In this document: piece by piece, positions 19,601-63,337 of the stretch
Layout: every line of letters begins with the position of its first letter
Position numbering within the stretch: position 1 is the first letter of the stretch
NCBI RefSeq assembly: GCF_048128805.1
Contig: NC_136012.1
Span: 10,266,621 to 10,330,620, forward strand
Length of the DNA stretch: 64,000 nucleotides
Source of the DNA: Centroberyx gerrardi
Taxonomy: Eukaryota; Chordata; Actinopteri; Beryciformes; Berycidae
Reading direction: 5' to 3'
Translations under genes and position numbers: made by a program
The notes under the pieces: generated by a model
Seen by the model: only the letters and a program-made list of their open reading frames with translations
What the model was told of the DNA's origin: nothing
Database searches by the model: none

Positions 19601-19602
19601 AC

Positions 19603-35511: not shown

Positions 35512-35532
35512 GTCGCTGTCCATAGTACTGAA
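35512..35532 (-). promoter_or_regulatory. RE1/NRSE-like element behind B2, canonical spacing
   Basis: Minus-strand halves TTCAGTACT (two changes) and GGACAGCGAC (perfect), 2 nt apart, 91 nt past the B2 donor and next to a CAGA repeat. The short spacer 35151-35622 also carries the diverged B1 promoter element. Confidence 0.6.
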
Positions 35533-35622
35533 AATTAATATCGTGGAGGCGGTTACAACAGTAATTCGCTTTACGATGATAGATAAGGAGAGCAAGGCTC
35601 GGAGTCTGCTACAAATTCTAAC

Positions 35623-38007
35623 CTCTATTGGAGAGTCTGGTTCATCCAGGATGCTCTTCTCACTCTGTATCCGCTGCATCGTCCCTGTAGAACTGGGGTC
35701 CATTATCAGCACGTTCTGACTACCGGCTCTGCCGAACTTACAGTCACTCTTTCTGGAGTCAGTCGTCCTGCACACCTCGTAATTGTACACGTGTGGGAGA
35801 GTCCCTGTCCCCAAAGTGTCTGAGTAACGTGGTGGATAATATGGAATCACCGGGAGACTGGAGTGATAGAGGATGCGAGACTGTCTCCATCTGTATATTT
35901 TCACTGATATAATAACCACTAAACACGTGATGAAGAGAAAGGAAACTACAGCCAAAGCCAAGACTAAGTAAAAAGTCAGGTTGTCATTGTACTCCTTGTC
36001 GTGTGTAAAGTCAGTGAACTCCGACAGCACTTCAGGGAAGCTGTCCGCCACCGCCACGTTAACATTGACTGTAGCTGAACGAGAGGGCTGTCCGTTGTCC
36101 TCCACTACAACAGTCAGCCTTTGTTTCACAGCATCTTTATCAGTGACTTGGCGGATAGTTCTTATTTCCCCATTCTGCAAGCCCACTTCAAACAGCGCCC
36201 TGTCTGTGGCTTTCTGCAGTTTATAGGAGAGCCAGGCATTCTGTCCAGAGTCCACATCAACAGCCACCACTTTAGTGACCAGATAGCCCACATCTGCTGA
36301 ACGAGGCACCATTTCAGCCACCAGAGAGCCACCAGTCTGGACTGGGTACAGAACCTGAGGGGCGTTGTCATTCTGGTCCTGGATCAGTATTTTCACAGTC
36401 ACATTGCTACTGAGTGGAGGAGAGCCTCCGTCCTGCGCTTTGACACGGAACTGGAAATCCTTGATGTGCTCGTAGTCAAAAGAGCGCACTGCATGGATGA
36501 CTCCACTATCAGCACTAACGGACACATATGAGGAGACGGGCACTCCGTTAACCGAGGAGTCCTCCAGTATGTAAGAAACACGGGCATTCTGGTTCCAGTC
36601 AGCGTCTCTGGCTTTCACTGTGAATACAGAGAGGCCTGGTGTGTTGTTTTCTACAATGTAGGCCTCATATGAGCTCCTCTCAAAGACAGGCGCGTTGTCA
36701 TTCACATCTGAGATCTGTAAGGTGAGAGTGACGCTGCTGGAGAGGGAGGGCACTCCCTCATCAGAGCAAGTCACACTGATATTATACTCAGAGGCTCTCT
36801 CTCTGTCCAAATCACTGTCTGTCACTAGGCTATAGAAACTGTTGGTTGAAGACTTCATTACAAATGGAATGTCATCATTTATGATGCACTGTACTTTGCC
36901 GTTATCACCCGAGTCTGCATCTTCAACATTTATCATTGTCACAACAGTATTAGTTTGAGCATCTTCCGAAATCACATTTGATTTAGACATTATATGAATA
37001 TCAGGTTTATTGTCATTCATATCTAACACATCAACTATCACTTTACAAGAATCAGCTAGTCCTCCATCATCACTTGCGCGGATGTTTATCTGGAAATTCC
37101 GCGCTTTTTCAAAGTCAATATTTCCTATTAACCTAACTTCGCCACTGTTTTCATTTACCTCAAACATTCCACGGGCATAATCTAGCATACTTGAAATTGA
37201 ATATGCTATTCTACCATTAGAGCCATGGTCTGCATCTGTAGCAGTAACCGTGGTTACAACTGTTCCTAAAGATGCATTTTCTCTTATGGAGGCTTTATAA
37301 ATTGGCTGTGTAAAAACAGGGGCATTATCATTAGCGTCTAAAACAGTGATGAGAATCTGCATTGTTCCAGACATCTGCGGCTCGCCTCCATCTACCGCCG
37401 TCAAAACTAAAGATAGGTGTTCATTTTTCTCTCTGTCAGGAGGTTTCTCTAAGACCATTTCGACATTTTTGCTTCCATCTGCTTGATTGCGCAACTTAAG
37501 AACGAAATTGTCTGTTGGTTCAAGGACATAGGTTTGTAAACCATTTACGCCCACATCAAGATCAATTGCTCTATCCAAAATGAATTTAGCTCCACTAACA
37601 GCAGATTCGCTGATTTTGAATTTGACATCGTTCTTTTCAAAGGTTGGAGGGTTATCATTGATGTCTGTGATCTCAATAGTTACACTGTAGAATTCCATTG
37701 GATTCTCTAATATAATCTGAAAATGTAAAGCGCAAGGCGTCGTTTGTCCGCAGAGCGCCTCTCTGTCTATTCTCTCTTTGATAAGGAGGACTCCTCTTTC
37801 TCTGTTGAGCTCGATGTATTCTGCACTGTCTCGAGTAAAAATTCGAGCTTTACCCGATTTCAGTCTAATTACATTTAAACCTAAATCCTGTGCTATGTTC
37901 CCAACTAAAGAGCCTTTCACCATTTCCTCAGGAATGGAATAGCTGACCTGCCCGAGCACCGAGCTGAGAGAGAGAACCGAGATAAACAACAGTACTTGCC
38001 GTCTCAT
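35623..38007 (-). CDS. B2: clustered protocadherin variable exon, gamma-like subfamily B
   Basis: Encodes 795 residues: signal peptide 1-20 (MRRQVLLFISVLSLSSVLGQ), EC1 with Cx5C (LCGQTTPC) closing in DINDN near 119, EC2 DANDN, EC3 DMNDN, EC4 DVNDN, EC5 DQNDN, EC6, membrane helix about 677-705, and a tail with PVIPYYPPRYSDT, YNYEVCRTTDSRKSD and ILDEPDSPIE. Start MRRQ is conserved in nearly all B exons; MSDRT upstream at 38022 is an alternative. The exon ends at GAG|GTTAGA (35623/35622). The frame then stays open for about 90 codons through a CAGA repeat, which is intron and not protein. Residues such as PPDREKNEHLS (PPDRE where others have PLDRE) are its own. Nearest relative by eye is B3. Confidence 0.93.
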
Positions 38008-38207
38008 TGTTCTGTCCGACATCGTCTATATAAGTCCTTATATAAACCTTATGCTCCTTTCGGACATTTATCTTCCGCAAGTTTCAGTCAAGAAAGGTTT
38101 TTATAACATATTCCCCAACACGAAGAAAGGTTGCCCTGTCCCGTTTGTCCATATTTAGTGTTTTCTGAAATCCGGATAGTGTGCTTTGCGTCTGTCGCTT
38201 TCTTTCT

Positions 38208-38290
38208 GTAATATACCGAGGTGATGGGAGGTACTAGTACAAGTCTGCTGTAAAACTGACACATACTGGCCAACAGCGGCCCTCTGAGTT
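38208..38290 (-). promoter_or_regulatory. B2 promoter: CSE plus TATA-like motif
   Basis: CSE at 38266-38290: plus-strand CTGGCCAACAGCGGCCCTCT, minus-strand CCGCTGTTGGCC with the CGCT box; it partly resembles the CTCF core. A TATA-like GGTATATTAC (minus) at 38208-38217 lies about 50 bp closer to the gene. The CSE is about 259 bp before the ATG. Confidence 0.72.
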
Positions 38291-38603
38291 AACAATACAA
38301 AATTACATGGGAAATGCGCACAAAAAATTAGATGCCTGAGTAAATTAACCGTGCTGTGAAAGGTCTGTAGTTATTGGTGATTATACAGGGTAGAAATGAA
38401 CTCAAAGCAACTACATTTGTCAAATGGAAATTATGAATTAAGAATCTTTGAAGTAAAAAAATAAAGAAGATAACTTTATGGATGAAATTAACGTGAAATT
38501 ATAACATATTTCATATTAAGACGCTTTACCTATACCATTTAAAGACGCTAACAAGAAAACATCTGAGGGAAAGAGAGATAGATTTGATTACCCACTTTAT
38601 ACT

Positions 38604-38624
38604 GTCGCTATCCTTGGTGCTGAA
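38604..38624 (-). promoter_or_regulatory. RE1/NRSE-like element behind B3, canonical spacing
   Basis: Minus-strand TTCAGCACC (perfect) and GGATAGCGAC (one change), 2 nt apart, 73 nt past the B3 donor. The rest of 38008-38696 is the B2 promoter and AT-rich sequence. Confidence 0.65.
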
Positions 38625-38696
38625 AATGTGGTAGCAAGCGAAAGAAAGCGAATACGTCTATTTTTAACTGGGAACAGATAGCCAGCGAGGTCTAAC

Positions 38697-41081
38697 CTCT
38701 ATAGGAGAGTCTGGTTCATCCAGGATGCTCTTCTCACTCTGTATCCGCTGCATCGTCCCTGTAGAACTGGGGTCCATTATCAGCACGTTCTGACTACCGG
38801 CTCTGCCGAACTTACAGTCACTCTTTCTGGAGTCAGTCGTCCTGCACACCTCGTAATTGTACACGTGTGGGAGAGTCCCTGTCCCCAAAGTGTCTGAGTA
38901 ACGTGGTGGATAATATGGAATCACCGGGAGACTGGAGTGATAGAGGACGCGAGACTGTCTCCATCTGTATATTTTCACTGATATAATAACCACTAAACAC
39001 GTGATAAAGAGAAAGGAAACTACAGCCAAAGCCAAGACTAAGTAAAAAGTCAGGTTGTCATTGTATTCCTTGTCGTGTGTAAAGTCAGTGAACTCCGAGA
39101 GCACTTCAGGGAAGCTGTCCGCCACCGCCACGTTAACATTGACTGCAGCTGAACGAGAGGGCTGTCCGTTGTCCTCCACTACAACAGTCAGCCTTTGTTT
39201 CACAGCATCTTTATCAGTGACTTGGCGGATAGTTCTTATTTCCCCATTCTGTAAGCCCACTTCAAACAGCGCCCTGTCTGTGGCTTTCTGCAGTTTATAG
39301 GAGAGCCAGGCATTCTGTCCAGAGTCCACATCAACAGCCACCACTTTAGTGACCAGATAGCCCACATCTGCTGAACGAGGCACCATTTCAGCCACCAGAG
39401 AGCCACCAGTCTGGACTGGGTACAGAACCTGAGGGGCGTTGTCGTTCTGGTCCTGGATCAGTATTTTCACAGTCACATTGCTACTGAGTGGAGGAGAGCC
39501 TCCATCCTGCGCTTTGACTCGGAACTGGAAATCCTTGATGTGCTCGTAGTCAAAAGAGCGCACTGCATGGATGACTCCACTATCAGCACTAACGGACACA
39601 TATGAGGAGACGGGCACTCCGTTAACCGAGGAGTCCTCCAGTATGTAAGAAACACGGGCATTCTGGTTCCAGTCAGCGTCTCTGGCTTTCATTGTGAATA
39701 CAGAGAGGCCTGGTGTGTTGTTTTCTACAATGTAGGCCTCATATGAGCTCCTCTCAAAGACAGGCGCGTTGTCATTCACATCTGAGATCTGTAAGGTGAG
39801 AGTGACGCTGCTGGAGAGGGAGGGCACTCCCTCATCAGAGCAAGTCACACTGATATTATACTCAGAGGCTCTCTCTCTGTCCAAATCACTGTCTGTGACA
39901 AGGCTATAGAAATTGTTCGATGAAGACTTCATCACAAAAGGAATATTGTCATTAATGCTGCACTGCACTTTGCCGTTTTCACCCGAATCTGTATCTTCAA
40001 CATTTATCATTGTCACGACAGTGTTGGTTTTGGCGTCTTCCGAAATCACATTTGATTTAGACATTATATGAATATTAGGTTTATTGTCATTCATATCTAA
40101 GACATCGACTATCACTTTACATGAACCGGTTAGTCCCCCATCATCACTTGCGCGGATGTTTATCTGAAAATTTCGTGACTTTTCATAGTCAATATTTCCC
40201 ATTAATCTAACCTCGCCACTTTCCTCATTTACTTCAAACATTCCACGGGCATAATCTAGCATACTTGTAATTGAATATGTTATTCTACCATTAGAGCCAT
40301 CATCAGCATCTGTTGCAGTAACTGACAATACAACTGTTCCTACTGGGGCATTTTCTTTAATGGAGGCTTTATAAATTGGCTGTGTAAAAACAGGGGCATT
40401 ATCATTAGCGTCTAAAACTGTGATGAGAATCTGCATTGTTCCAGACATCTGCGGCTCGCCTCCATCTACCGCCGTCAAAACTAAAGCGAGGTGTTCATTT
40501 TTCTCCCTATCCAGGGGTGTATGCAAGACCATCTCAACATTTTTACTACCATCTACTTGATTATTCATTTTGAGGGAAAAATTGTCCGTTGGTTTTAGGA
40601 CAAAGGTTTTCAAATTATTCTCGCCCACGTCAAGATCAGTCGCCCTGTCTAAAATGAATGTCGCACCAGTTACAGCTGACTCGCTGATTTTAAACTGAAC
40701 ATCGCTCGCTTCAAAGGATGGAGGGTTATCATTGATGTCTGTGATCTCAACAGTTATACTGTAAAATTCCATTGGATTCTCTAATATAATCTGAAAATGT
40801 AAAGCGCAAGGCGTCGTTTGTCCGCAGAGCGCCTCTCTGTCTATTCTCTCTTTGATAAGGAGGACTCCTCTTTCTCTGTTGAGATCGATGTATTCTGCAC
40901 TGTCTAGAGTAAAAATGCGAGCTTTGCCTGATTTTAGTCTTTTCACATCTAAACCTAAATCCTGTGCTATGTTACCGACTAAAGAGCCTTTCGCCATTTC
41001 CTCAGGAATAGAGTAGCTGACCTGCCCGAGCACCGAGCTGAGAGACAGGACCGAGATAAACAGCAGTACTTGCCACCTCAT
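38697..41081 (-). CDS. B3: clustered protocadherin variable exon, subfamily B
   Basis: Encodes 795 residues, starting MRWQVLLFIS (Trp where others have Arg). An in-frame ATG five codons earlier (MSGST, 41096) and another at 41168 exist; the conserved signal peptide argues for 41081. EC1 matches B2 closely; EC2 has SFEASDVQFKISESAVTGATF and EC3 has SITSMLDYARGMFEVNEESG. EC4 onward is the shared B sequence, with TMKARDAD in EC5 instead of TVKARDAD, and a few silent or conservative changes (AAVNVNV for ATVNVNV in EC6). Donor GAG|GTTAGA at 38697/38696. The upstream flank (promoter and 5' leader) resembles that of B2, so B2 and B3 are probably tandem duplicates older than B7/B8. Confidence 0.93.
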
Positions 41082-41285
41082 TGTGCTGCCCGACATTTTC
41101 TGTAAGTAAGTCCTTATATCAGCCTTGTACTCCTTTTGGATATTTGTCTTTCGCAAGTTTTCAGTCAAAATAGTTTCTTAACACACATTCCCCAACACGA
41201 AGAAAGTATGCGCTGTCCCGTGTCTCAGTATTTAGTGTTCTCTAGAATCCAGACTGTGTGCTTTGCGTCTGTGTCTTTCTTTCTC

Positions 41286-41367
41286 TAATATATCGAGATG
41301 ATGGGAGGTACTACTACAAGTCTGCTGTACTACAGACACATACTGGGCAACAGCGGCCCTCTGAGTT
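41286..41367 (-). promoter_or_regulatory. B3 promoter: CSE plus TATA-like motif
   Basis: CSE at 41343-41367 reads CTGGGCAACAGCGGCCCTCT (plus), one change from B2. A TATA-like CGATATATTAG (minus) lies at about 41286-41295. Confidence 0.7.
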
Positions 41368-41678
41368 CATAACACAAAATTACATGTGAAATGCGCACAA
41401 CAAATTGAGATGCCTAAATAAATTATCAAAGTTGTGAATAATCACATATTGATGCTTACAGAGAGTGACAGTGAACTACAGGCGACTAGATGTCAAAGAG
41501 AACAACTGCACAAATGGAGAATTTGAATTTAAAACGAGGGGGAAAAAACAAATTGAAGAGTAAATTAATGTGAAATTCTAAAAAACTGTCATGAACTTGA
41601 AAAGCTTTACCCGTGTTATTTCATTACAAGAAAGAAAATGAGGGAAAGGGAGTTTTGATTTTCAAATTTCATATTGTT

Positions 41679-41699
41679 GTCACTATCCTTGGTAGTGAA
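41679..41699 (-). promoter_or_regulatory. Weakened RE1-like element behind B4, canonical spacing
   Basis: Minus-strand TTCACTACC and GGATAGTGAC, two changes in each half, 2 nt apart, 76 nt past the B4 donor. Position and flank match the B3 element, so it is a decaying copy. The remaining 41082-41774 spacer holds the B3 promoter only. Confidence 0.45.
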
Positions 41700-41774
41700 A
41701 ATGAGGAGACAAGCGGTAAAAAGGATTAAGTAACTCGATTTTCAACTAGGAACAGATAGCCAACGCGGTCTAAC

Positions 41775-44159
41775 CTCTACAGGAGAGTCTGGTTCATCCA
41801 GGATGCTCTTCTCACTCTGTATCCGCTGCATCGTCCCTGAAGAACTGGGGTCCATTATCAGCACGTTCTGACTACCGGCTCTGCCGAACTTACAGTCACT
41901 CTTTCTGGAGTCAGTCGTCCTGCACACCTCGTAATTGTACACGTGTGGGAGAGTCCCTGTCCCCAAAGTGTCTGAGTAACGTGGTGGATAATATGGAATC
42001 ACCGGGAGACTGGAGTGATAGAGGATGCGAGACTGTCTCCATCTGTATATTTTCACTGATATAATAACCACTAAACACGTGATGAAGAGAAAGGAAACGA
42101 CAGCCAAAGCCAATACTAAGTAAAAAGTCAGGTTGTCATTGTACTCCTTGTCGTGTGTAAAGTCAGTGAACTCCGACAGCACTTCAGGGAAGCTGTCCGC
42201 CACCGCCACGTTAACATTGACTGTAGCTGAACGAGAGGGCTGCCCGTTGTCCTCCACTACAACAGTCAGCCTTTGTTTCACAGCATCTTTATCAGTGACT
42301 TGGCGGATAGTTCTTATTTCCCCATTCTGTAAGCCCACTTCAAACAGCGCCCTGTCTGTGGCTTTCTGCAGTTTATAGGAGAGCCAGGCATTCTGTCCAG
42401 AGTCCACATCAACAGCCACCACTTTAGTGACCAGATAGCCCACATCTGCTGAACGAGGCACCATTTCAGCCACCAGAGAGCCACCAGTCTGGACTGGGTA
42501 CAGAACCTGAGGGGCATTGTCGTTCTGGTCCTGGATCAGTATTTTCACAGTCACATTGCTACTGAGTGGAGGAGAGCCTCCATCCTGCGCTTTTACGCGA
42601 AATTGGAAATCCTTGATCTGCTCGTAGTCAAAAGAGCGCACTGCATGGATGACTCCACTATCAGCACTAACGGACACATATGAGGAGACGGGCACTCCGT
42701 TAACCGAGGAGTCCTCCAGTATGTAAGAAACACGGGCATTCTGGTTCCAGTCAGCATCTCTGGCTTTCACTGTGAATATAGAGAGGCCTGGTGTGTTGTT
42801 TTCTACAATGTAGGCCTCATATGAGCTCCTCTCGAAGACAGGCGCGTTGTCATTCACATCTGAGATCTGTAAGGTGAGAGTGACGCTGCTGGAGAGGGAG
42901 GGCACTCCCTCATCAGAACAAGTCACAGTAATATTGTACTCAGACGCTCTCTCTCGGTCCAAATCACTGTCTGTCACTAGGCTATAGAAATTATTTGATG
43001 TCGACTTCAATAGGAAAGGGATATCATCATATATGGAACACCGGACTTTACCATTTTCACCTGAGTCTGGGTCCTGGATGTTAATCATTGTCACGACAGT
43101 GTTGGGGTTTGCATTTTCTGATATAATATTTGATTTAGACATGATTTTAATAGTTGGCTCATTATCATTAACATCGATGATATCGACTATCACTTTACAT
43201 GAATCTGTTAGTCCTCCGTTATCACTTGCGCGTAAATTGACCTGAAAATGTCGTTTCTTTTCGTAATCAATATGTCCAATCAATGTAACTTCGCCACTCT
43301 CTTCATTTACCTCAAACATATGTCTGACCTCATCTAAAGTATTCGTGATTGAATAAGTTATTTTACAATTTGAGCCATGGTCAGCATCTGATGCACTAAC
43401 CGTAGTCACTACTGTGCCTTTCGCTGCATTTTCAGTCACAGTAGCTTTGTATACCGGCTGTGTAAAAACAGGGGCATTGTCATTGACATCTAGCACTGTA
43501 ATGAGAATCTGCATTGTTCCTGACATTTGGGGCTCTCCTCCATCTACGGCCGTTAAAACTAATGACATAAACTCATTTTTTTCTCTGTCAAGAGGTTTTT
43601 GTAAGATCATTTCCACATTTTTTGTCCCGTCTGCTTGGTTGTGCAATTTAAGTATGAAATTATCAGTTGGCTTAAGTAGGTAATTTTGGAGACTATTAGT
43701 ACCGACATCTAAATCCATTGCTCTTTCTAAATCAAATTTTGCTCCGACAACTGCAGATTCGCTGATTTTGAATTTAATTTCGCCTTTCTCAAAAGATGGT
43801 GGATTATCGTTAATGTCTGTAATTTCAACTGTTACACTGTAGAATTCCATGGGATTCTCTAATATAATCTGAAAATGCAAAGCACAAGGCGTCGTCTCAC
43901 CGCATAACGCCTCTCTGTCTATTCTCTCTTTGATAAGGAGGACTCCTCTTTCGTTATTCAACTCGATGTATTCTCTGCTATCGCCAGAATAGACACGAGC
44001 TTTACCTGACTTTAGTCTTTTTACATCTAAACCTAAATCCTGTGCAGTGTTGCCGACTACAGAGCCTGTCGCCATTTCCTCAGGAATGGAGTAGCTGACC
44101 TGCCCGAACACTGAGCTGAGAGAAAGGACCGAGATAAACAACAGTACTTGCCGTCTCAT
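41775..44159 (-). CDS. B4: clustered protocadherin variable exon, subfamily B (sister of B6)
   Basis: Encodes 795 residues from MRRQ at 44159 (frame open to an ATG at 44186). EC1 has KARVYSGDSREYIELNNERG and LCGETTPC; EC2 has EKGEIKFKISESAVVG; EC3 has NTLDEVRHMFEVNEESGEV. It is very similar to B6, 6.16 kb away with B5 between, and the upstream flanks of both match as well. EC3 contains HGSNCKITYSI, a lone Cys where B6 and the others have Gly, which could leave a free thiol. The tail has PSSSGTMQR in place of PSSTGTMQR and ends DEPDSPVE at GAG|GTTAGA (41775/41774). From EC4's closing DVNDN onward it follows the shared B sequence. Confidence 0.93.
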
Positions 44160-44366
44160 TGTTCGAAATTTTCTCAGCAAGAGCAATCAACAAACTGGTC
44201 AGACTCCGTCAGAAAAAAACCCCCGCCAGGCATCAAAACCGGGTATGAAGCAAAAAATAGCCCATATTCCACAAATTGTTAATAAACGAATGTCAGTGAT
44301 GCCTCTTCATGTATACCAATCCCTGTAGCGTAGACAATGCTCTCTACGCCTGTCTCTTCTTCTCTC

Positions 44367-44446
44367 TAATATGTCGACATGAGGAGGCGGGACTGCTGTT
44401 CTGTACTAAAACTGAAGCAGACTAGCCAACAGCGGCCCGCTGAGTT
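44367..44446 (-). promoter_or_regulatory. B4 promoter: CSE plus TATA-like motif
   Basis: CSE at 44422-44446 reads CTAGCCAACAGCGGCCCGCT (plus); TATA-like GACATATTAG (minus) near 44367. Flank shared with B6. Confidence 0.7.
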
Positions 44447-44728
44447 CAGAAAACAATACTACAAAACATTTGTTCCAAGCGGACTGAGTTCATGCGAAAG
44501 CAGAGGTTGTCGACAAGCTGGTGAAATAGTTTTATAAGGTTAAAAGTATATTGTAGCATATTTTATAAACCTTTATATACAAGCTCAAGATGTAGACAAA
44601 ATATTTCACTAGTAAATAGAAAGAAAAGGAAATAGCGAGTTCATTAGTTCTCTTCAAAATTCACCAAGTAAGAAGACCGGCTTATCTGTAGTTAACTGAA
44701 ATTTTATGGCCTGTATAAATACCCCTGT

Positions 44729-44749
44729 GTTGCTCTCCAGGGTCCTGAA
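44729..44749 (-). promoter_or_regulatory. RE1/NRSE-like element behind B5, canonical spacing
   Basis: Minus-strand TTCAGGACC (one change) and GGAGAGCAAC (two changes), 2 nt apart, 113 nt past the B5 donor. It is a sister of the B7 element. The rest of 44160-44861 is the B4 promoter and AT-rich sequence. Confidence 0.5.
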
Positions 44750-44861
44750 ATAGATACCGGTATGCAACCATTTCAAATGAAGCTGTTGCAGCAGCAACGT
44801 GCTTTCGATTTGGAGGCAAAGTAATGGGGAGGGTGTGTGTGTAATGTTACAGCTTTCTAAC

Positions 44862-47246
44862 CTCTAGAGGAGAGTCTGGTTCATCCAGGATGCTCTTCTC
44901 ACTCTGTATCCGCTGCATCGTCCCTGTAGAACTGGGGTCCATTATCAGCACGTTCTGACTACCGGCTCTGCCGAACTTACAGTCACTCTTTCTGGAGTCA
45001 GTCGTCCTGCACACCTCGTAATTGTACACGTGTGGGAGAGTCCCTGTCCCCAAAGTGTCTGAGTAACGTGGTGGATAATATGGAATCACCGGGAGACTGG
45101 AGTGATAGAGGATGCGAGACTGTCTCCATCTGTATATTTTCACTGATATAATCACAACCAAACACGTGATGAAGAGAAAGGACACTACAGCCAAAGCCAA
45201 TACTAAGTAAAAAGTCAGGTTGTCATTGTACTCCTTGTCGTGTGTAAAGTCAGTGAACTCCGACAGCACTTCAGGGAAGCTGTCCGCCACCGCCACGTTA
45301 ACATTGACTGTAGCTGAACGAGAGGGCTGCCCGTTGTCCTCCACTACAACAGTCAGCCTTTGTTTTACAGCATCTTTATCAGTGACTTGGCGGATAGTTC
45401 TTATTTCCCCATTCTGTAAGCCCACTTCAAACAGCGCCCTGTCTGTGGCTTTCTGCAGTTTATAGGAGAGCCAGGCATTCTGTCCAGAGTCCACATCAAC
45501 AGCCACCACTTTAGTGACCAGATAGCCCACATCTGCTGAACGAGGCACCATTTCAGCCACCAGAGAGCCACCAGTCTGGACTGGGTACAGAACCTGAGGG
45601 GCGTTGTCGTTCTGGTCCTGGATCAGTATTTTCACAGTCACATTGCTACTGAGTGGAGGAGAGCCTCCATCCTGCGCTTTTACGCGGAACTGGAAATCCT
45701 TGATGTGCTCGTAGTCAAAAGAGCGCACTGCATGGATGACTCCACTATCAGCACTAACGGACACATATGAGGAGACGGCCACTCCGTTAACCGAGGAGTC
45801 CTCCAGTATGTAAGAAACGCGGGCATTCTGGTTCCAGTCAGCGTCTCTGGCTTTCACTGTGAATATAGAGAGGCCTGGTGTGTTGTTTTCTACAATGTAG
45901 GCCTCAGATGAGCTCCTCTCAAAGACAGGCGCGTTGTCATTCACATCTGAGATCTGTAAGGTGAGAGTGACGCTGCTGGAGAGGGAGGGCACTCCCTCAT
46001 CAGAGCAAGTCACAGTGATATTATACTCAGAGGCTCTCTCTCGGTCTAAATCACTGTCTGTTAATAAGCTATAGAAATTATTGGCTGTAGACTTTAATAA
46101 GAATGGAATATTCTCATTTATTACACATTGGACTTTGCCATTTTCATCGGCGTCTGGATCTTGAACGTTAATTATTGTTACGACGGTATTCGTTTTGACA
46201 TCTTCAAATACCACATTTGATTTAGACATTACCTTAATAAGCGGCTTATTATCATTCACATCCATAATATCAACTATTACTTTGCAGGAGTCTGTTAGTC
46301 CTCCATCATCACTTGCACGTAAATTTATTTGATAATTTCGGGCCTTTTCGTAGTCAATATTTCCAATCAACCTAACCTCGCCGCTCTCTTCATTAACCTC
46401 AAACATATGTCTGACATCATCTAAAGTATTCCTGATCGAATACGTTATTCTTCCATGGGATCCGTGATCGGCATCTGATGCGCTAACTGTAGTAACCACT
46501 GTACCTTCTGGAGAATTTTCTGCCACAGTGGCCTTGTACATTGGTTGTGTGAAAACGGGTGCATTATCATTGGCATCTAACACCGTGATGAGAATCAGCA
46601 TCGTTCCTGACAACTGTGGTTCGCCTCCATCTACAGCCGTCAACACTAAAGATATATGTTCATTTTTCTCCCTATCTAGAGGTTTTTGTAAAATCATCTC
46701 AACATTTTTTGACCCATCTGCCTGATTGTGTAATTTGAGAGCAAAATTATCTGTTGGTTTAAGGAGGTAGTTTTGAAGACCATTAATTCCAACGTCTAAA
46801 TCCACAGCTCTTTCCAAGTCAAATTTCGATCCGCTGACTGCAGACTCGCTTATTTTGAATTGAATTTCGCTTTTCTCAAAAGCGGGAGGATTATCATTAA
46901 CGTCTATGATTTCAACTATTACGCCATAAAATTCAATTGGATTCTCTAAAATGATTTGAAAGTGCAAAGCGCAAGGCGTAGTCTGTCCGCAGAGCGCCTC
47001 TCTGTCTATTCTCTCTTTGATCAGGAGGGCTCCTCTGTCTTTTTTCAGCTCGATGTAATCTCTGCTATCACCAGAGTAGACACGAGCGTTACGTGATTTT
47101 AGTCTTTCCACATCTAAACCCAAATCCTGTGCTACATTTCCAACTAAAGATCCCCTTGACATCTCCTCGTTAATGGAGTAACTGACTTGCCCGAGCACTG
47201 AACTGAGAAAAATGACCGAGATAAACAACAGTACTTGCCGTCTCAT
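44862..47246 (-). CDS. B5: clustered protocadherin variable exon, subfamily B
   Basis: Encodes 795 residues from MRRQVLLFISVIFLSSVLGQ. EC1 opens VSYSINEEMSRGSLVGNVAQ, with Asn replacing the very conserved Pro of SIPEEM, and carries KSRNARVYSGDSRDYIELKKDRGALL. EC2 begins AFEKSEIQFKISESAVSGSKF. EC3 has RNTLDDVRHMFEVNEESG, related to B4/B6, and EC4 has SNVVFEDVKTNTVVTIINVQDPDADENG. In the otherwise fixed EC5 start, RSSYEAYIVEN is RSSSEAYIVEN here (Tyr to Ser). Donor GAG|GTTAGA at 44862/44861. The codon for one membrane-proximal region differs slightly from neighbours (VISFLF region codons) though the protein is unchanged, showing incomplete homogenisation. Confidence 0.93.
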
Positions 47247-47446
47247 TGTTCTCCGCGGTATTTTGTTAAAGGCAGGAAATAAATAGTTTTATTCCGTGAA
47301 GTAAATCGTGTTGGAATTATCTCCCTGGTATAAGAAAAAAATCAGCCCATAGTCCTCAACACACGAAGAAAACAATCGTCGCTCGACATTCGTTTGTAGT
47401 GTTCACTATAACCCAGACTGTGCTCTGAATCTATCCCTTTCACTCT

Positions 47447-53295: not shown

Positions 53296-53501
53296 TGTTC
53301 TGTCCGATATTTCTGTCGCACCACAACAAACGTTTCCTTCCGTTTTTCAATCAATGTTCCGTCCGATGTAAAGTCGAAATGTAACAGGAATATCAATTTA
53401 ATCCACGAGTCTTGAACAAAATAATTCCAGCTTGAAATGTCCGTGTAAAACGTTGGCTGTAACCTGGAATGTGTATTCTGCGTCTGACTGTCCCTCTCTC
53501 A

Positions 53502-53586
53502 CTAATATACCGAGATAACAGAGGAGGTTCTGGTACAAAACTGATTTAAAACTGCAACACACTGGCCAACAGCGGCCCGTTGAGTT
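53502..53586 (-). promoter_or_regulatory. B7 promoter: CSE plus TATA-like motif
   Basis: CSE at 53562-53586 reads CTGGCCAACAGCGGCCCGTT (plus), 267 bp before the ATG; TATA-like GGTATATTAG (minus) near 53502. Almost identical to B8's promoter through the tandem duplication. Confidence 0.72.
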
Positions 53587-53772
53587 CAGAGTAGGAAACT
53601 ACATGAGAAAAAACATGAATCGTGATGTTTTAGCCGAACATTTGTTAGTACTTTTATGGAAAGTGTAAAGAATTAACTACCCAACTAAAGAAAACTGGAC
53701 GTGTTTTACAAGTAGTCGAACGAAGAGAAATGTTTAACACAAACATGGATTAAGTCAGATTTTGCCCTAATG

Positions 53773-53776
53773 AAGA

Positions 53777-53857
<81 letters not shown>
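53773..53857. repeat. (GA)n microsatellite behind B8
   Basis: About 85 bp of GA with GAAA interruptions, 25 nt from the B8 RE1. Confidence 0.95.
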
Positions 53858-53859
<2 letters not shown>

Positions 53860-53881
53860 GACGAGAACCCATGCTTCAGTT

Positions 53882-53902
53882 GTCGCTGTCCAAGGTGCTG
53901 AA
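53882..53902 (-). promoter_or_regulatory. RE1/NRSE element behind B8, canonical spacing, both halves perfect
   Basis: Minus-strand TTCAGCACC, TT, GGACAGCGAC: every strongly conserved REST position is matched. It lies 66 nt past the B8 donor and 25 nt from a GA tract. The remaining 53296-53967 spacer holds the B7 promoter. Confidence 0.82.
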
Positions 53903-53967
53903 GCTATATTGCCCGTGAACGACGATTTCAAAAATGTTTTTTATTATCAAAATGTGAACATTCTAAC

Positions 53968-56349
53968 CTCTAGAGGAGAGTCTGGTTCATCCAGGATGCT
54001 CTTCTCACTCTGTATCCGCTGCATCGTCCCTGTAGAACTGGGGTCCATTATCAGCACGTTCTGACTACCGGTTCTGCCGAACTTACAGTCACTCTTTCTG
54101 GAGTCAGTCGTCCGGCACACCTCGTAATTGTACACGTGTGGGAGAGTCCCTGTCCCCAAAGTGTCTGAGTAACGTGGTGGATAATATGGAATCACCGGGA
54201 GACTGGAGTGATAGAGGATGCGAGACTGTCTCCATCTGTATATTTTCACTGATATAATAACCACTAAACACGTGATGAAGAGAAAGGAAACTACAGCCAA
54301 AGCCAAGACTAAGTAAAAAGTCAGGTTGTCATTGTACTCCTTGTCGTGTGTAAAGTCAGTGAACTCCGACAGCACTTCAGGGAAGCTGTCCGCCACCGCC
54401 ACGTTAACATTGACTGTAGCTGAACGAGAGGGCTGCCCGTTGTCCTCCACTACAACAGCCAGCCTTTGTTTCACAGCATCTTTATCAGTGACTTGGCGGA
54501 TAGTTCTTATTTCCCCATTCTGTAAGCCCACTTCAAACAGCGCCCTGTCTGTGGCTTTCTGCAGTTTATAGGAGAGCCAGGCATTCTGTCCAGAGTCCAC
54601 ATCAACAGCCACCACTTTAGTGACTAGATAGCCCACATCTGCTGAACGAGGCACCATTTCAGCCACCAGAGAGCCACCAGACTGGACTGGGTACAGAACC
54701 TGAGGGGCGTTGTCGTTCTGGTCCTGGATCAGTATTCTCACAGTCGCATTGCTACTGAGTGGAGGAGAGCCTCCATCCTGCGCTTTGACTCGGAACTGGA
54801 AATCCTTGATCTGCTCGTAGTCAAAAGAGCGCACTGCATGGATGACTCCACTATCAGCACTAACGGACACATATGAGGAGACGGGCACTCCGTTAACCGA
54901 GGAGTCCTCCAGTATGTAAGAAACACGGGCATTCTGGTTCCAGTCAACGTCTCTGGCTTTCACTGTGAATATAGAGAGGCCTGGTGTGTTGTTTTCTACA
55001 ATGTAGGCCTCATACGAGCTCCTCTCAAAGACAGGCGCGTTGTCATTCACATCTGAGATCTGTAAGGTGAGAGTGACGCTGCTGGAGAGGGAGGGCACTC
55101 CCTCATCAGAGCAACTCACAGTGATATTATACTCAGAGGCTTTCTCTCTGTCTAAATCACTGTCTGTCACTAGGCTATAAAAATTACTTGATGTAGATTT
55201 AATTGTAAATGGTATATTTCTATTAATTACACATTGGACTTTACCATTACTTTCAGAATCAGGATCGTTGACACTCATCATAGCTATCACTGTATTAGAA
55301 AGGGAATCCTCTTGTATAACATTTGATGTCGAAATCATATTTATAATGGGACTATTGTCATTAATGTCACTTATATCAATGACCACTTTGCTTGAATCAG
55401 AGAGACCTCCTCGGTCAATCGCCTCTATATCAAGCTGATAGGTTTTAGCTTTTTCATAATCGACTGGCCCATCTAATATAAGATCACCTTCGTCAGTAAT
55501 GTGAAAAAGCTTTGAAACAGTATCCATGCCATTTCCGATGACGTAGGTCACCTCTCCATTTGAGCCTTTGTCTGCATCAGATGCACTCACTTTCGTAACG
55601 AGGGTTCCTCTTAAGGAGTTTTCTGTAACACTTGCCTTGTAAACGCTTTTCGTAAAAACAGGAGCGTTGTCATTAGCGTCTAACACAGTAACATGAATCT
55701 GCATTGTCCCAGACCTTTGCGGTTCCCCACCATCCACAGCCGTTAACAATAATGATATATGCTCCTGTTTCTCTCTATCCAACGGTTTCTGCAAAATCAT
55801 TTCTACCTTTTTACTCCCATCAGGATGACTATGCAGTTTAAGCATAAAATTATCACTCGGCTTAAGTGTATAGCTTTGAAGACCATTCAGTCCTATATCA
55901 GGGTCAATCGCTTTCTCTAGCATGAATTTAGAACCGATCACTGCGGACTCGCTGATTTCAAATCTTCTCTCGTCCTTTTGGAACACAGGAGCGTTATCAT
56001 TAATGTCTGTGATTTCGACAGTAATAGGGAATAATTCCATCGGGCTCTCTAAGGCAATCTGGAAATGCAAAGCGCAAGGAGTTGTCTGTCCGCAGAGCGC
56101 TTCGCGATCTATTTTTTCTTTGATAAGGAGGACTCCTCTTTCTCTATTCAGCTCGATATATTGAGCACTGTCTCCTGTATAGATACGAGCTTTACCTGAC
56201 TTTAGTCTTTTAACATCTAAACCCAAATCCTGTGCTATATTACCGACTAAAGAGCCTTTCGCCATTTTCTCAGGAATGGAGTAGCTGACCTGCCCGAGCA
56301 CCGAGCTGAGAGAGAGGATCGAGATAAACAACAGTACTTGCCGTCTCAT
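53968..56349 (-). CDS. B8: clustered protocadherin variable exon, subfamily B (tandem sister of B7)
   Basis: Encodes 794 residues: signal 1-20, Cx5C at 86-92, DxNDN motifs at 115-119, 224-228, 328-332, 433-437 and 543-547, helix about 676-704. SIPEKM replaces SIPEEM at the start of EC1. EC3-EC4 differ from B7 (GNGMDTVSKLFHITDEGDLILDGPVDYEKAKTY split by several changes; SDINDNSPIINMISTSNV). In the conserved part it carries small private changes: ARDVDWNQ, SSNATVRILIQ, VQSGGSLVAE, and a Thr in FGRTGSQ. Donor GAG|GTTAGA at 53968/53967. An excellent RE1 match lies 66 nt downstream, beside a long GA tract. Confidence 0.93.
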
Positions 56350-56556
56350 TGTTCTGTCCGATATTTCTGTCGCACCACAACAAACGTGTTTCCTTCCGTT
56401 TTACAATCAAAGTTCCGTCAAATGTCAATTCGAAATGTAACAGTAATATCAATTTAATCCACAAGTCTTGAACAAAATAATTCCAGCTTGAAATGTCCGT
56501 GGAAAGCGTTGGCTGTAACCGGGAATGTGCATTCTGCGTCTGACTGTCCCTCTCTC

Positions 56557-56642
56557 ACTAATATACCGAGATGACAGAGGAGGTTCTGGTACAAAACTGA
56601 TTTAAAACTGCAACACACTGGCCAACAGCGGCCCGTTGAGTT
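56557..56642 (-). promoter_or_regulatory. B8 promoter: CSE plus TATA-like motif
   Basis: CSE at 56618-56642, the same 20-base core as B7, 269 bp before the ATG; TATA-like GGTATATTAG (minus) near 56557. Confidence 0.72.
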
Positions 56643-56842
56643 CAGAGTAGGAAACTACATGAGAAAAAAACATGAATCGTGATGTTTTAGGCGAACATTT
56701 GTTAGTACTTTTATGGAAAGTGTAAAAAATTAACTACCCAACTAAAGAAAATTGGACGTGTTTTACAAGTAGTCGAACGAAGAGAAATATTTAACACAAA
56801 AACATTGTTTTCCCTGTGGATTAAGTCAGATTTTGCCCTAAT

Positions 56843-56844
56843 GA

Positions 56845-56909
<65 letters not shown>

Positions 56910-56914
56910 AGAGA
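56843..56914. repeat. (GA)n microsatellite behind B9
   Basis: About 72 bp; positional homologue of 53773-53857 in the B7/B8 duplication. Confidence 0.95.
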
Positions 56915-56939
56915 CATGACGAGAACCAATGCTTCAGTT

Positions 56940-56960
56940 GTCGCTGTCCACGGTGCTGAA
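56940..56960 (-). promoter_or_regulatory. RE1/NRSE element behind B9, canonical spacing, both halves perfect
   Basis: Minus-strand TTCAGCACC, GT, GGACAGCGAC, 48 nt past the B9 donor. It is the closest to an exon in the window and the best match along with B8. The 56350-57007 spacer also holds the B8 promoter and a GA tract. Confidence 0.83.
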
Positions 56961-57007
56961 GCTCTATTGCCCGTGAATGACGATTTTAAATATGTGAACA
57001 TTCTAAC

Positions 57008-59392
57008 CTCTATTGGAGAATCTGGTTCATCCAGGATGCTCTTCTCACTCTGTATCCGCTGCATCGTCCCTGTAGAACTGGGGTCCATTATCAGCACGTT
57101 CTGACTACCGGCTCTGCCGAACTTACAGTCACTCTTTCTGGAGTCAGTCGTCCTGCACACCTCGTAATTGTACACGTGTGGGAGAGTCCCTGTCCCCAAA
57201 GTGTCTGAGTAACGTGGTGGATAATACGGAATTACCGGGAGACTGGAGTGATAGAGGACGCGAGACTGTCTCCATCTGTATATTTTCACTGATATAATAA
57301 TCACTAAACACGTGATAAATAGAAAGGAAACTACAGCCAAAGCCAAGACTAAGTAAAAAGTCAGGTTGTCATTGTACTCCTTGTCGTGTGTAAAGTCAGT
57401 GAACTCCGACAGCACTTCAGGGAAGCTGTCCGCCACCGCCACATTAACATTGACTGTAGCTGAACGAGAGGGCTGCCCGTTGTCCTCCACTACAACAGTC
57501 AGCCTTTGTTTCACAGCATCTTTATCAGTGACTTGGCGGATAGTTCTTATTTCCCCATTCTGTAAGCCCACTTCAAACAGCGCCCTGTCTGTGGCCTTTT
57601 GCAGTTTATAGGAGAGCCAGGCATTCTGTCCAGAGTCCACATCAACAGCCACCACTTTAGTGACCAGATAGCCCACATCTGCTGAACGAGGCACCATTTC
57701 AGCCACCAGAGAGCCACCAGTCTGGACTGGGTACAGAACCTGAGGGGCGTTGTCGTTCTGGTCCTGGATGTTTAATTTCACAGTCACATTGCTACTGAGT
57801 GGAGGAGAGCCTCCATCCTGCGCTTTGATCCGGAACTGGAAATCCTTGATCTGCTCGTAGTCAAAAGAGCGCACTGCATGGATGACTCCACTATCAGCAC
57901 TAACGGACACATATGAGGAGACGGCCACTCCGTTAACCGAGGAGTCCTCCAGTATGTAAGAAACACGGGCATTCTGGTTCCAGTCAGCGTCTCTGGCTTT
58001 CACTGTGAATATAGAGAGGCCTGGTGTGTTGTTTTCTACAATGTAGGCCTCATATGAGCTCCTCTCAAAGACAGGCGCGTTGTCATTCACATCTGAGATC
58101 TGTAAGGTGAGAGTGACGCTGCTGGAGAGGGAGGGCACTCCCTCATCAGAGCAGGTCACACTGATATTATATTGGGAAGCCACTTCCCTGTCCAAAGCTA
58201 CCTCTGTAACTAAACTATAGAATCCGTTTAATGTAGCCTTTATTTTAAACGGGATGTTATCATTTATACTACAGTCCACCTCTCCATTATTCTCAGAGTC
58301 CGGGTCATTTACGCTTATCATTGCTATTACCGTATTCGGAGGAGAGTCCTCTAAAAGGGAGTGCGACTTGGAGAGTATATTTAATTGTGGATTATTATCA
58401 TTTACGTCAATTACATCAACTGTGATCTTACTAGAATCAGAGAGTCCTCCATTGTCTACAGCTTCAATATCTATTTGGTAGAGCTTAGCTTTCTCATAAT
58501 CTATTTCACCGATCAAAATAACCTCACCAGTTTTCCTATCGATCTGAAATAGGTCGGATAAACGGCGCTTGCTATTGGAAATTACATATGATACTTCTCC
58601 GTTAGAGCCTTTGTCTTTGTCAAATGCATTAACAGTCGTTACGCTTGTTCCCCTCGGTGAATTCTCGGTTATTGTTGCCTTGTATACTGGTTTCGTGAAA
58701 ACGGGTGCATTGTCATTCACATCTAACACATTGACATATATCTGCATTGTCCCTGACATCTGTGGCTCTCCTCCATCCATAGCAGTTAACAACAGTGGTA
58801 TTTGCTCCTGGTTCTCTCTATCTAGAGCCTTCTGTAGAACCATTTCTACCTTTTTGCTTCCGTCTACTTGATTCTCTAGTTTCAATACAAAGTTATCTGT
58901 TGGATTAAGCGAGTAGCTTTGGAGGTTATTTAAACCAATGTCAGCATCGATGGCTTTCTCTAATACGAATTTAGACCCAATAACGGCTGACTCGCTTATT
59001 TCAAAACGCTTCTCGCTAGATGCAAAGCTGGGGGCGTTGTCGTTTATGTCTGTGATTTCTACTGTAATGCGAAACATTTCCATTGGATTTTCCATAATTA
59101 TCTGAAAATGTAAGGCACAAGGCGTCGTTTCCCCACACAACGTTTCTCTGTCTATTCTCTCTTTGATGAGGAGGACTCCTCTTTCTTTATTCAGCTCGAT
59201 GTATTCTGCGGTGTCTCCCGAATGAATACGAGCTTTACCCGATTTCAGCCTTTTCAAATCTAAACCTAAATCCTGTGCAATACTACCGACTAAAGATCCC
59301 TTCGCCATTTCCTCAGGAATGGAGTAGCTGACCTGCCCGAGCACTGAACTGAGAGAGAGGACCGAGATGAACAACAGTACTTGCCGTCTCAT
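57008..59392 (-). CDS. B9: clustered protocadherin variable exon, subfamily B
   Basis: Encodes 795 residues from MRRQ at 59392 (frame open to 59443). EC1 has LDLKRLKSGKARIHSGDTAEYIELNKERG and LCGETTPC with IIMENPMEMFRITVEITDINDNAPSF. EC3 has SNSKRRLSDLFQIDRKTGEV; EC4 has SKSHSLLEDSPPNTVIAMISVNDPDSENNGEVDC and TEVALDREVASQYNISVTC. In EC5 the strand before DQNDN reads TVKLNIQDQNDN, unlike the ILIQ of the other exons, with the matching DNA change at about 57770. The frame continues about 110 codons past the exon through a GA tract; that is intron, since GAG|GTTAGA at 57008/57007 is the donor. A near-perfect RE1 lies 48 nt past it. Confidence 0.93.
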
Positions 59393-59621
59393 TGTTATGT
59401 CAGGAAATTCCTCCTGTGTCATTTCAACAAAATTGTAATCCACACGACATTAAAAAAAATCCCATTTGATCTCAAAGAAATATGTTCAACCAAAAATGGC
59501 AGCTTGTCGTCTCCGTGATCAGTATTCTTTATATCCCGGACAGGCTTTCTGCGTCTGCTTTATTGTCTATCGAAAGCTAAGGGGAGGTACAGTTGCCAGT
59601 CCTGCCTGAGACTGCCACACA

Positions 59622-59646
59622 CTGGCCAATAGCGGCCCTTTCTGTT
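59622..59646 (-). promoter_or_regulatory. B9 promoter CSE
   Basis: CTGGCCAATAGCGGCCCTTT (plus): one base change turns CCAAC into a perfect CCAAT on the plus strand while the CGCT box stays. The TATTAG motif of B2-B8 is not recognisable here. The 59393-60113 spacer is otherwise AT-rich and shows no RE1. Confidence 0.66.
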
Positions 59647-60113
59647 CAATACACTGAACTACAAAAAGCAGTGGAAGAGGAAGATGAAATGACTTCTGGA
59701 AAAAGTAACTTAATAGTAAAACGCTGATGAAGACAATCTCGGCCTATGTGTGTCATATGACTGGATAACAATCACCAAAATATGAGAGTTGATAAAAAAA
59801 ATGTAATACCAAAAATGTCAGTCTCATAAAAATGATGAATATTAGATGGCCAGTGCGATAAGATACTAATTTACTTAATTGGAGATGAAAGTACCCTCAT
59901 TAATAGAAAATCCCAAATTTTAAACGTGTTGATATAATCCAACTAACTCGTGAGCTCGAAGACACACCTTCACAAAAATAACTAGTTTTTAATGTGTCTC
60001 AATTCCTGTAATTACAATGAATCATACTTTATATTACACCAAAAAGGTACATGACAGTAAAAATATTATCATTTTGTGAAAGTACAATTTCATTATCAGT
60101 ATGACATTCTAAC

Positions 60114-62498
60114 CTCTAGAGGAGAGTCTGGTTCATCCAGGATGCTCTTCTCACTCTGTATCCGCTGCATCGTCCCTGTAGAACTGGGGTCCATTATCAG
60201 CACGTTCTGACTACCGGCTCTGCCGAACTTACAGTCACTCTTTCTGGAGTCAGTCGTCCTGCACACCTCGTAATTGTACACGTGTGGGAGAGTTCCTGTC
60301 CCCAAAGTGTCTGAGTAACGTGGTGGATAATATGGAATCACCGGGAGATTGGAGTGATAGAGGATGCGAGACTGTCTCCATCTGTATATTTTCACTGATA
60401 TAATAACCACTAAACACGTGATAAAGAGAAAGGAAACTACAGCCAAAGCCAAGACTAAGTAAAAAGTCAGGTTGTCATTGTACTCCTTGTCGTGTGTAAA
60501 GTCAGTGAACTCCGACAGCACTTCAGGGAAGCTGTCCGCCACCGCCACGTTAACATTGACTGTAGCTGAACGAGAGGGCTGCCCGTTGTCCTCCACTACA
60601 ACAGTCAGCCTTTGTTTCACAGCATCTTTATCAGTGACTTGGCGGATAGTTCTTATTTCCCCATTCTGTAAGCCCACTTCAAACAGCGCCCTGTCTGTGG
60701 CTTTCTGCAGTTTATAGGAGAGCCAGGCATTCTGTCCAGAGTCCACATCAACAGCCACCACTTTAGTGACCAGATAGCCCACATCTGCTGAACGAGGTAC
60801 CATTTCAGCCACCAGAGAGCCGCCAGTCTGGACTGGGTACAGAACCTGAGGGGCGTTGTCATTCTGGTCCTGGATCATTATTTTCACAGTCACATTGCTA
60901 CTGAGTGGAGGAGAGCCTCCATCCTGCGCTTTGATCCGGAACTGGAAATCCTTGATCTGCTCGTAGTCAAAAGAGCGCACTGCATGGATGACTCCACTAT
61001 CAGCACTAACGGACACATATGAGGAGACGGCCACTCCGTTAACCGAGGAGTCCTCCAGTATGTAAGAAACACGGGCATTCTGGTTCCAATCAGCGTCTCT
61101 GGCTTTCACTGTGAATATAGAGAGGCCTGGTGTGTTGTTTTCTACAATGTAGGCCTCATATGAGCTCCTCTCAAAGACAGGCGCGTTGTCATTCACATCT
61201 GAGATCTGTAAGGTGAGAGTGACGCTGCTGGAGAGGGAGGGCACTCCCTCATCAGAGCAAGTCACAGTGATGTTATACTCGGAGGCTCTCTCTCTGTCCA
61301 AATCACTGTCTGTTATTAGGCTATAGAAATTATTTGATGTCGACATTATGGTTAAAGGAGTATTGTCGTTAATAAAACAATGGACTTTGCCGTTTTCATT
61401 TGAATCTGGGTCTTGTACGTTCATCATTGTTACAACGGTATTCGGCTTAGAGTCCTCAGATATCACGTTTGATTTGGACATTATACTAATGGTAGGTTTG
61501 TTGTCATTCATATCCACCACGTCAACTATGACTTTACAAGAATCTGTAAGTCCACCGTCATCACTTGCACGTAAATTTATGTGGTAATTACGTGCATTTT
61601 CATAGTCAATATTTCCAATCAATATAATTTCGCCACTGTCTTCGTTTACCTCAAACAGTCCATGGGCATGATCTAAAATATTTGATATTGAATATTTTAT
61701 TCTACCATTCGTTCCATGATCTGCATCTGATGCACTAACACTGGTGACAACTGTCCCTTGTGGGGCATTTTCAATAACGGTGGCTTTGTAGTTGGGCTGT
61801 GAAAAAACAGGCGCGTTATCATTGGCATCTAACACTGTGATGAGAATCTGCATTGTTCCTGACATCTGCGGGTCTCCTCCATCTACAGCCGTTAAAACTA
61901 AAGATATGAGCTCTTGTTTCTCCCTATCGAGAGGGTTTTGCAAAACCATTTCAACCTTTGTTGTTCCATCGGCTTGACTGTACAGTTTAAGTGCAAAATT
62001 ATCGGTTGGCTTAAGCTCGTAGTTTTGAAGACCATTTTTGCCGACATCAAGATCAATTGCCCTATCTAAAACAAATTTTGCTCCACTCACAGCGGATTCA
62101 CTGATTTTAAAATTGACTTCATTTTTTTCAAAAGATGGAGGGTTATCATTGATGTCTGTAATCTCAACTGTGATACTGTAAAATTCCATAGGATTTTCCA
62201 AAATAATCTGAAAATGTAAAGCACAAGGCGTTGTCTGTCTGCAAATCGCCTCCCTGTCTATTCTCTCTTTGATAAGGAGGAATCCTCTGTCTTTATTTAG
62301 CTCGATGTATTCCGCACTGTCTCCTGTATAAATACGAGCTTTACCTGATTTCAATCGTTTAATATCCAAACCTAAATCCTGAGGTATGTTACCGACTAAA
62401 GAGCCTTTCGCCATTTCCTCAGGAATGGAGTAGCTGACCTGCCCGAGCACTGAACTGAGAGAGAGAACCGAGAAAAACAACAGTACTTGCCGTCTCAT
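60114..62498 (-). CDS. B10: clustered protocadherin variable exon, subfamily B
   Basis: Encodes 795 residues from MRRQVLLFFSVLSLSSVLGQ (ATG also at 62513 as MSDIT). EC1 reads GNIPQDLGLDIKRL, with Pro in place of the conserved Ala, and AICRQTTPC. EC2 has EKNEVNFKISESAVSGAKFVLDRAIDLDVGKNG. EC3 has SNILDHAHGLFEVNEDSG and closes in DMNDN. EC4 has INDNTPLTIMSTSNNFYSLITDSDLD. Conserved 3' half with TVKIMIQDQNDN in EC5 and HSNLPVIPYY in the tail. Donor GAG|GTTAGA at 60114/60113. Unlike most B exons, I find no RE1-like element in the 650 bp behind the donor. Confidence 0.93.
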
Positions 62499-62751
62499 TG
62501 TTATGTCCGACATTTCCCACGCGAAACTTAATAAAAGGAGTTATATTCCAAAATGGTCAGATATTTTTGATCCCTTAGATTAAAAAACAAAATATGAAAG
62601 GACGTAGTTCCATAATCGACAACATTGGTACAAAATGAACGTCAGCGCTGTCCTCGTTTTAGTGCACTCTGAGATACTGACGGCGTCTGCCTTTCTCTAT
62701 CAAGAGAATGGGGGAGGTTTGTCTTTGAATCTGCAATGAAACATCAACACA

Positions 62752-62776
62752 CTGGCCAACAGCGGCCCTAAGAGTA
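62752..62776 (-). promoter_or_regulatory. B10 promoter CSE
   Basis: CTGGCCAACAGCGGCCCTAA (plus), 254 bp before the ATG; no clear TATA-like motif. The flank resembles B5 (CCCTAAGAGT). Confidence 0.68.
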
Positions 62777-63200
62777 CAATGTATTGAACTACAGAAAACT
62801 CTGGGAGAGAAGAAAACTGTAAACGGGAATATATAATTTATCTTATGGACTAGGAGAAATAGCGATCAAATAGTTGAAGCTTTTCAGGTTGTAATGTGCT
62901 TACATAACAAATTAGAAAGAACTTACTTTGTATTGTTATATACCTTTATGAAACAGAGGAAATGAAAATTGGAGTTCTTGTGATATGCAGGCTAACAAAA
63001 ACATGGAGCGTTGTCCAAAGAAAAATGAAAATGGGGGCCATCAACATGCAAACCCTTGAAAACATGTAAAGGTTATCAAAAAGATGTTTAAGAAGATACA
63101 CACACACAAAAAAAGAAAAAAGGTTGAGTTGCCCAATTCATAATGTAAAAAATTCTATATGTTCATCTATCACGCCACCTCTAAATATTGATACAGCCGA

Positions 63201-63249
63201 CCCCCCCCCCCCCCCCCACCCCCCACCACACACACACACACACACACAA
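63201..63249. repeat. Poly(C) and (CA)n
   Basis: Seventeen C residues, a C-rich link, then about 12 CA units. Confidence 0.95.
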
Positions 63250-63316
63250 ACACGAGTCATCAACAAAAGTATCTTGGCAATGGAGAACATACAGTATGTT
63301 GATGCGGCAAAGCACT

Positions 63317-63337
63317 GTCGCTGTCCACGGTACTGAT
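63317..63337 (-). promoter_or_regulatory. RE1/NRSE-like element behind B11, canonical spacing
   Basis: Minus-strand ATCAGTACC (two changes) and GGACAGCGAC (perfect), 2 nt apart, 93 nt past the B11 donor. The 62499-63429 spacer also holds the B10 promoter, a C run and a CA run; the rest is AT-rich and featureless. Confidence 0.62.

Follow-up and report, generated by a model that had tools for sequence, protein, structure and literature searches.

Which factor acts on the short element repeated between the variable exons of this protocadherin locus, and does this element serve the exon that precedes it or the promoter that follows it? The window, that is, the whole stretch of 64 kb of DNA analysed here, which we take to come from a teleost, contains 17 tandem open frames on the minus strand, 11 belonging to a B subfamily (B11 to B1 in transcribed order) followed by six belonging to an A subfamily (A6 to A1), numbered as in the first-pass annotation so that the numbers rise with the plus-strand coordinate (Table 1). 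A recognisable splice donor is present in all 17 frames, and 16 of them are 799-910 amino acids long as listed, the remaining one, B11, being cut at the window edge. Our reading is that most intervals between these exons very probably carry one predicted REST silencer (RE1) upstream of the next promoter, in a 2-nt form for B and in an 8-9-nt form for A.

The exons were filed as clustered protocadherins because of their tandem array and of domain and PDB searches of two of the 17, B8 and A1. Both contain cadherin repeats and a cadherin cytoplasmic domain; the best PDB match of B8 is mouse protocadherin gamma-B4, and A1 matches protocadherin-10 (630.7 bits) and gamma-B4 (629.4 bits) about equally. 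These PDB scores do not separate the alpha from the gamma cluster, and for B8, the only B exon searched, mouse gamma chains match no worse than alpha chains. Moreover, a motif scan of the 64-kb window did not retrieve any constant-exon motif, and the two subfamilies may therefore have common constant exons located outside it. The link to Pcdh-alpha drawn in the first-pass annotation is thus a loose one. The B promoters have a CGCT box, which is seemingly absent in A, and zebrafish alpha promoters are described as lacking it (PMC4978886); the comparison is a hint only. The cytoplasmic ends are nearly identical among B2-B11 and the 5' parts of the B exons differ, 3' similarity versus 5' divergence being as expected from gene conversion.

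Table 1. Variable exons, candidate RE1 elements and promoter elements, with their positions in the window
Feature	Position	Strand	Remark
B subfamily, 11 variable protocadherin exons	32748..63999	-	B11 cut by window edge
A subfamily, 6 variable protocadherin exons	809..22231	-	
Ten CGCT-box promoter elements, one per B-B interval	span 35356..62768	-	217-285 nt before next ATG
Canonical RE1, gap 2, interval B11-B10	63317..63337	-	
Canonical RE1, gap 2, interval B9-B8	56940..56960	-	joint best match
Canonical RE1, gap 2, interval B8-B7	53882..53902	-	joint best match
Canonical RE1, gap 2, interval B7-B6	50777..50797	-	4 mismatches; score under top shuffle score
Canonical RE1, gap 2, interval B6-B5	47785..47805	-	
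Canonical RE1, gap 2, interval B5-B4	44729..44749	-	4 mismatches; score under top shuffle score
Weak canonical RE1, gap 2, interval B4-B3	41679..41699	-	5 mismatches; score near mean shuffle maximum; sub-threshold in spacing scan
Canonical RE1, gap 2, interval B3-B2	38604..38624	-	
Canonical RE1, gap 2, interval B2-B1	35512..35532	-	
Non-canonical RE1, gap 8	23558..23584	+	textbook halves; 1.3 kb upstream of A6 frame, opposite orientation
Non-canonical RE1, gap 8, interval A6-A5	19424..19450	-	
Non-canonical RE1, gap 8, interval A5-A4	16079..16105	-	
Non-canonical RE1, gap 8, interval A3-A2	7959..7985	-	
Non-canonical RE1, gap 8, interval A2-A1	3969..3995	-	
Non-canonical RE1, gap 9, past exon A1	131..158	-	following sequence outside window

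A mismatch scan retrieved nine 21-nt RE1-like elements, all on the minus (coding) strand, with halves 2 nt apart and one to five differences from the consensus TTCAGCACCNNGGACAGCGCC. They come after the donors of nine of the 11 B exons (B2-B9 and B11; B1 and B10 are without one) and the distance from the donor G to their first position is 47-116 nt, or 48-117 nt if counted from 1, which bears out the number, spacing, strand and distances given in the first-pass annotation. The B8 and B9 elements had been called perfect there; their halves are exactly as that annotation wrote them, but each has one mismatch to the textbook right half GGACAGCGCC.

As a control, the window was dinucleotide-shuffled 100 times and scanned for the same matches. 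At no more than four mismatches, there were 8 real matches versus a shuffle mean of 0.05 (maximum 2), at no more than five, 9 versus 0.71 (maximum 3), and at no more than six, 17 versus 6.15. The eight extra matches at this last threshold comprise five in exons, two weak ones in the A region (15551 and 11394) and the mis-spaced right half of the 19424 site. Neither these A-region matches nor five TGGAGGACAACGGACAGCCCT matches in B exons, apparently lying over a conserved EDNGQPS stretch, were counted. A scan with a weight matrix (our own approximation of the REST motif, not that of JASPAR) against shuffled sequence, which had been set as a check on the original proposal, came out in its favour, with 8 real matches scoring at least 15 versus a shuffle mean of 0.1 (maximum 1). 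Over the 100 shuffles, the top score of a shuffle averaged 12.1 and reached 19.0 at most; therefore, six of the nine B elements exceed every shuffle, while B5 and B7 (17.9 each) and B4 (12.3, approximately the average shuffle maximum) do not. Any single B element is less certain than the B elements as a set.

A second set, missed by the first-pass annotation, is located near the A exons and consists of six non-canonical RE1s, with a gap of 8 nt in five and of 9 nt in one. Elements are thus present in 15 of the 17 intervals (10 B-B, five A-A, the 10-kb B1-A6 spacer and the cut interval past A1). The two without are B10-B9 and A4-A3, the latter with a left half at 11901 for which half-site pairing recovered no right half. 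The idea that each promoter unit would be silenced separately receives no support from this count, two promoters having no site of their own. Fourteen of the 15 elements have the coding-strand orientation. At 23540-23584, the plus-strand RE1 located between A and B shares sequence with an inverted repeat, GGTGCTGATTTCAGCACC. An HS5-1-like enhancer at this 23558 site was considered and is not supported, because no CTCF-like site was found within 3 kb of it (consensus with at most two mismatches, scanned without a shuffled control).

The distance between the two halves bears on the identity of the factor. A spacing scan over gaps of 0-30 nt gave 36 matches, 8 at a gap of 2, five at 8, one at 9, nine at 17, 11 at 24 and two at 29, with 60 shuffles as control (mean summed over the same gaps, 4.6; top single score, 23.9). 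Over gaps of 0-16, all 14 matches are at 2, 8 or 9, for shuffle means of 0.08-0.23 per gap, and the scan gave none at gaps of 0-1, 3-7 and 10-16. Nine of these 14 matches score above 23.9; those at 16079 and 3969, as well as B2, B5 and B7, do not. In human MPRAduo reporters, atypical RE1 spacers are described as silencing only at 8 and 9 bp, with the canonical 2-bp RE1 silencing more strongly than these forms (PMC9903721), and the REST spacing classes reported from ChIP-nexus are 2 or 7-9, never 3-6 (PMC8096226). Since the gaps observed here (2 or 8-9, not 3-6) are those that silence in human assays, the geometry favours REST, and this match to working spacings is the strongest argument for REST as the factor. 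The REST/RE1 identity proposed at the outset appears, on sequence and spacing, well supported.

The longer gaps are found inside the exons. The gap-17 pairs occur in nine of the 11 B exons and the gap-24 pairs in all 11, at repeated positions and with scores of 16.3 and 18.8, respectively, the latter equal to the spacing-scan score of B5 and B7. They were not counted because MPRAduo showed no silencing at such spacings, as described in PMC9903721; such exonic half-site-like pairs (e.g. 54382 and 54146, minus strand) probably reflect protein constraint. The two gap-29 matches were rejected, their left halves being reused from gap-8 sites.

Could a factor other than REST, or an RNA element, lie behind this conservation instead? 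The motif TTTCAG resembles a 3' splice acceptor, and TTCAG is indeed found in the left half of 12 of the 15 elements, often after T-rich sequence. However, the right half is conserved as well as the left, the spacer being the part that varies freely, and reading the motif as a splice acceptor leaves a second half at 2, 8 or 9 nt unexplained, which makes this explanation scarcely credible next to REST.

The B element was also recovered without the REST matrix. In a search for 21-mers common to the B intervals, which began immediately past the donor, stopped 40 nt short of the CGCT box and was ranked after removal of low-complexity 21-mers, RE1 came first both in all 10 intervals and in the seven remaining without B4, B7 and B8. 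A common 21-mer might be a mere passenger of tandem duplication, shared only through the copying of exons. Indeed, the B intervals are paralogous, with three closer pairs (B8/B9, B3/B4 and B5/B7), and 14 of the 15 elements, 23558 being the exception, have at right-half position 9 an A where the textbook form has a C; from this common A, we read the 14 as being of common descent and 23558 as separate. Descent by copying does not, however, account for the rest of the pattern: over B2-B9 the element has been kept at a mean identity of 0.81, while three neighbouring segments have diverged to 0.39-0.46 (0.56 in the promoter segment), and in A as in B both halves have been retained despite gaps differing by 6-7 nt, only working spacings having been reached. 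We consider it very improbable that the element is such a passenger, and a maintained REST site is preferred.

The position of the elements relative to the flanking exons can be read in two ways. The first-pass annotation tied them to the preceding donor, in the 3' intron, and, in the B intervals, the distance from element to donor is indeed tighter (SD 24) than that from element to CGCT box (SD 111), which holds for all nine B elements and is the reason why a donor-linked role was considered, in which REST bound past the donor would affect elongation or donor use of the upstream exon. The segment between donor and element also leans towards the upstream exon, although not significantly (Mantel r 0.28, p 0.10, versus r 0.12, p 0.31 for the downstream exon). 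In contrast, identity over the whole interval rises with that of the exon downstream (rho 0.81) and not with that of the exon upstream (rho -0.31), as calculated with the first 1200 nt of each exon over 36 pairs whose non-independence affects the p-value. In Mantel tests of five segments (1500 permutations, the eight intervals B2-B9 only), the downstream exon is tracked by the segment from +21 to +60 of the element (r 0.72, p 0.004) and by that from promoter to ATG (r 0.71, p 0.009). The long segment from element to promoter gave r 0.18 (p 0.18) with the downstream exon, the 21-mer itself tracks neither exon (upstream -0.32; downstream 0.03), and none of the five segments is significantly tied to the upstream exon.

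The A elements also argue against a role at the donor, as they lie 320-803 nt from their donors and, in the four measurable cases, 550-735 nt before the ATG of the next frame (taken as the first in the open frame), and the 23558 site is approximately 9 kb from the nearest upstream donor. Each of the 10 B-B intervals, too, contains the CGCT box of the exon that follows. Furthermore, B10, which is without an element, keeps the same GTTAGA donor, leaving the suggested effect on donor use without support. Therefore, a function with the upstream exon is unlikely and not favoured, and, because the intervals track the downstream exon and the A elements are far from donors, the elements are attributed, with moderate confidence, to the promoter that follows; of the original placement, the tight B distance stands and the functional tie to the donor does not.

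The promoters themselves differ between the subfamilies. A CSE/CGCT box was found in 10 of 10 B-B intervals, 217-285 nt before the start codon, where such a box is expected at approximately 200-280 nt, while the A promoters, seemingly without this box, have in its place a conserved block with ACAGAACTGTAC (3489-3521, 7479-7511 and 22431-22444, minus strand), followed in the A-A intervals by AAAGAGATCTACTCCCTCCC. Right-half-only GGACAGCG sites were also seen at 62646 and 41211 (minus strand), approximately 130-150 nt upstream of the B10 and B3 start codons.

In the mechanism that we propose, the order in the direction of transcription would be the previous donor, the RE1, the promoter element (the CGCT box in B, the different block in A) and the next ATG. 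Outside neurons, REST bound to the RE1 would recruit corepressors and keep the following promoter silent, and probably neighbouring promoters too. Genes without an NRSE are reportedly controlled by the NRSEs of their neighbours, and zebrafish is said to have NRSEs as well. In neurons, the loss of REST would let promoter choice by CTCF and the enhancer go ahead. The B promoters would be under the canonical 2-nt form and the A promoters under the 8-9-nt form, the weaker silencer in human reporters, so that a corresponding difference in strength may be predicted between the subfamilies. Such a pattern would fit a known way of keeping neuronal surface-identity genes off outside the nervous system.

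A bolder extension is that REST control is split by subfamily, strong 2-nt RE1s in B and weaker 8-9-nt RE1s in A having both descended from a single ancestral element whose spacing changed so as to skip non-functional lengths, and that, as neurons differentiate, each subfamily is released at its own level of REST; we regard this as possible and hold it only tentatively. The spacing split between A and B would be the new part, the type of regulation itself being of a known kind. We did not find a canonical/non-canonical split between neighbouring subfamilies described in the mainly open-access literature covered, and a word search of the fugu cluster paper PMC1852091 gave no mention of a silencer. 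If the reading is correct, the split may provide natural-sequence evidence, within one locus, for the 2/8/9 rule of human reporter assays, and the 15 related sites, with their natural changes in half-match and spacing, may serve as a series for testing REST strength against the release of neuronal promoters.

REST sites have been reported for the protocadherin clusters of fugu and mammals, and the system is, therefore, a known one. The fugu, mouse and human clusters are described as holding multiple canonical and non-canonical NRSEs (PMC3601302, citing Tan 2010, NAR 38:4985), through which, according to the same source, REST may act from promoter NRSEs in fugu and from NRSEs in the coding sequence in mammals. 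In Xenopus tadpoles, transgene expression is described there as neural-specific with the NRSE and ubiquitous once this has been deleted (PMC3601302), and rest knockdown in zebrafish has been described as derepressing NRSE-bearing transgenes outside neurons. The spacing rule of MPRAduo (PMC9903721) is the same as that seen here, but comes, as presented, from a genome-wide human reporter test and not from protocadherins. Human PCDH genes resemble this locus in having REST sites per variable exon in 2-bp and 8-bp forms (Tang et al. 2021, PMC8096226); in contrast, the human sites are reported inside the variable exons and the HS5-1/HS7 enhancers (PMC8096226), whereas those of this locus lie between exons. 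The fugu clusters, as presented in PMC3601302, come closer, being fish protocadherins with multiple promoter-placed canonical and non-canonical NRSEs, and what may distinguish the present locus from them is the occurrence of an element in nearly all intervals and a spacing class that divides two neighbouring subfamilies.
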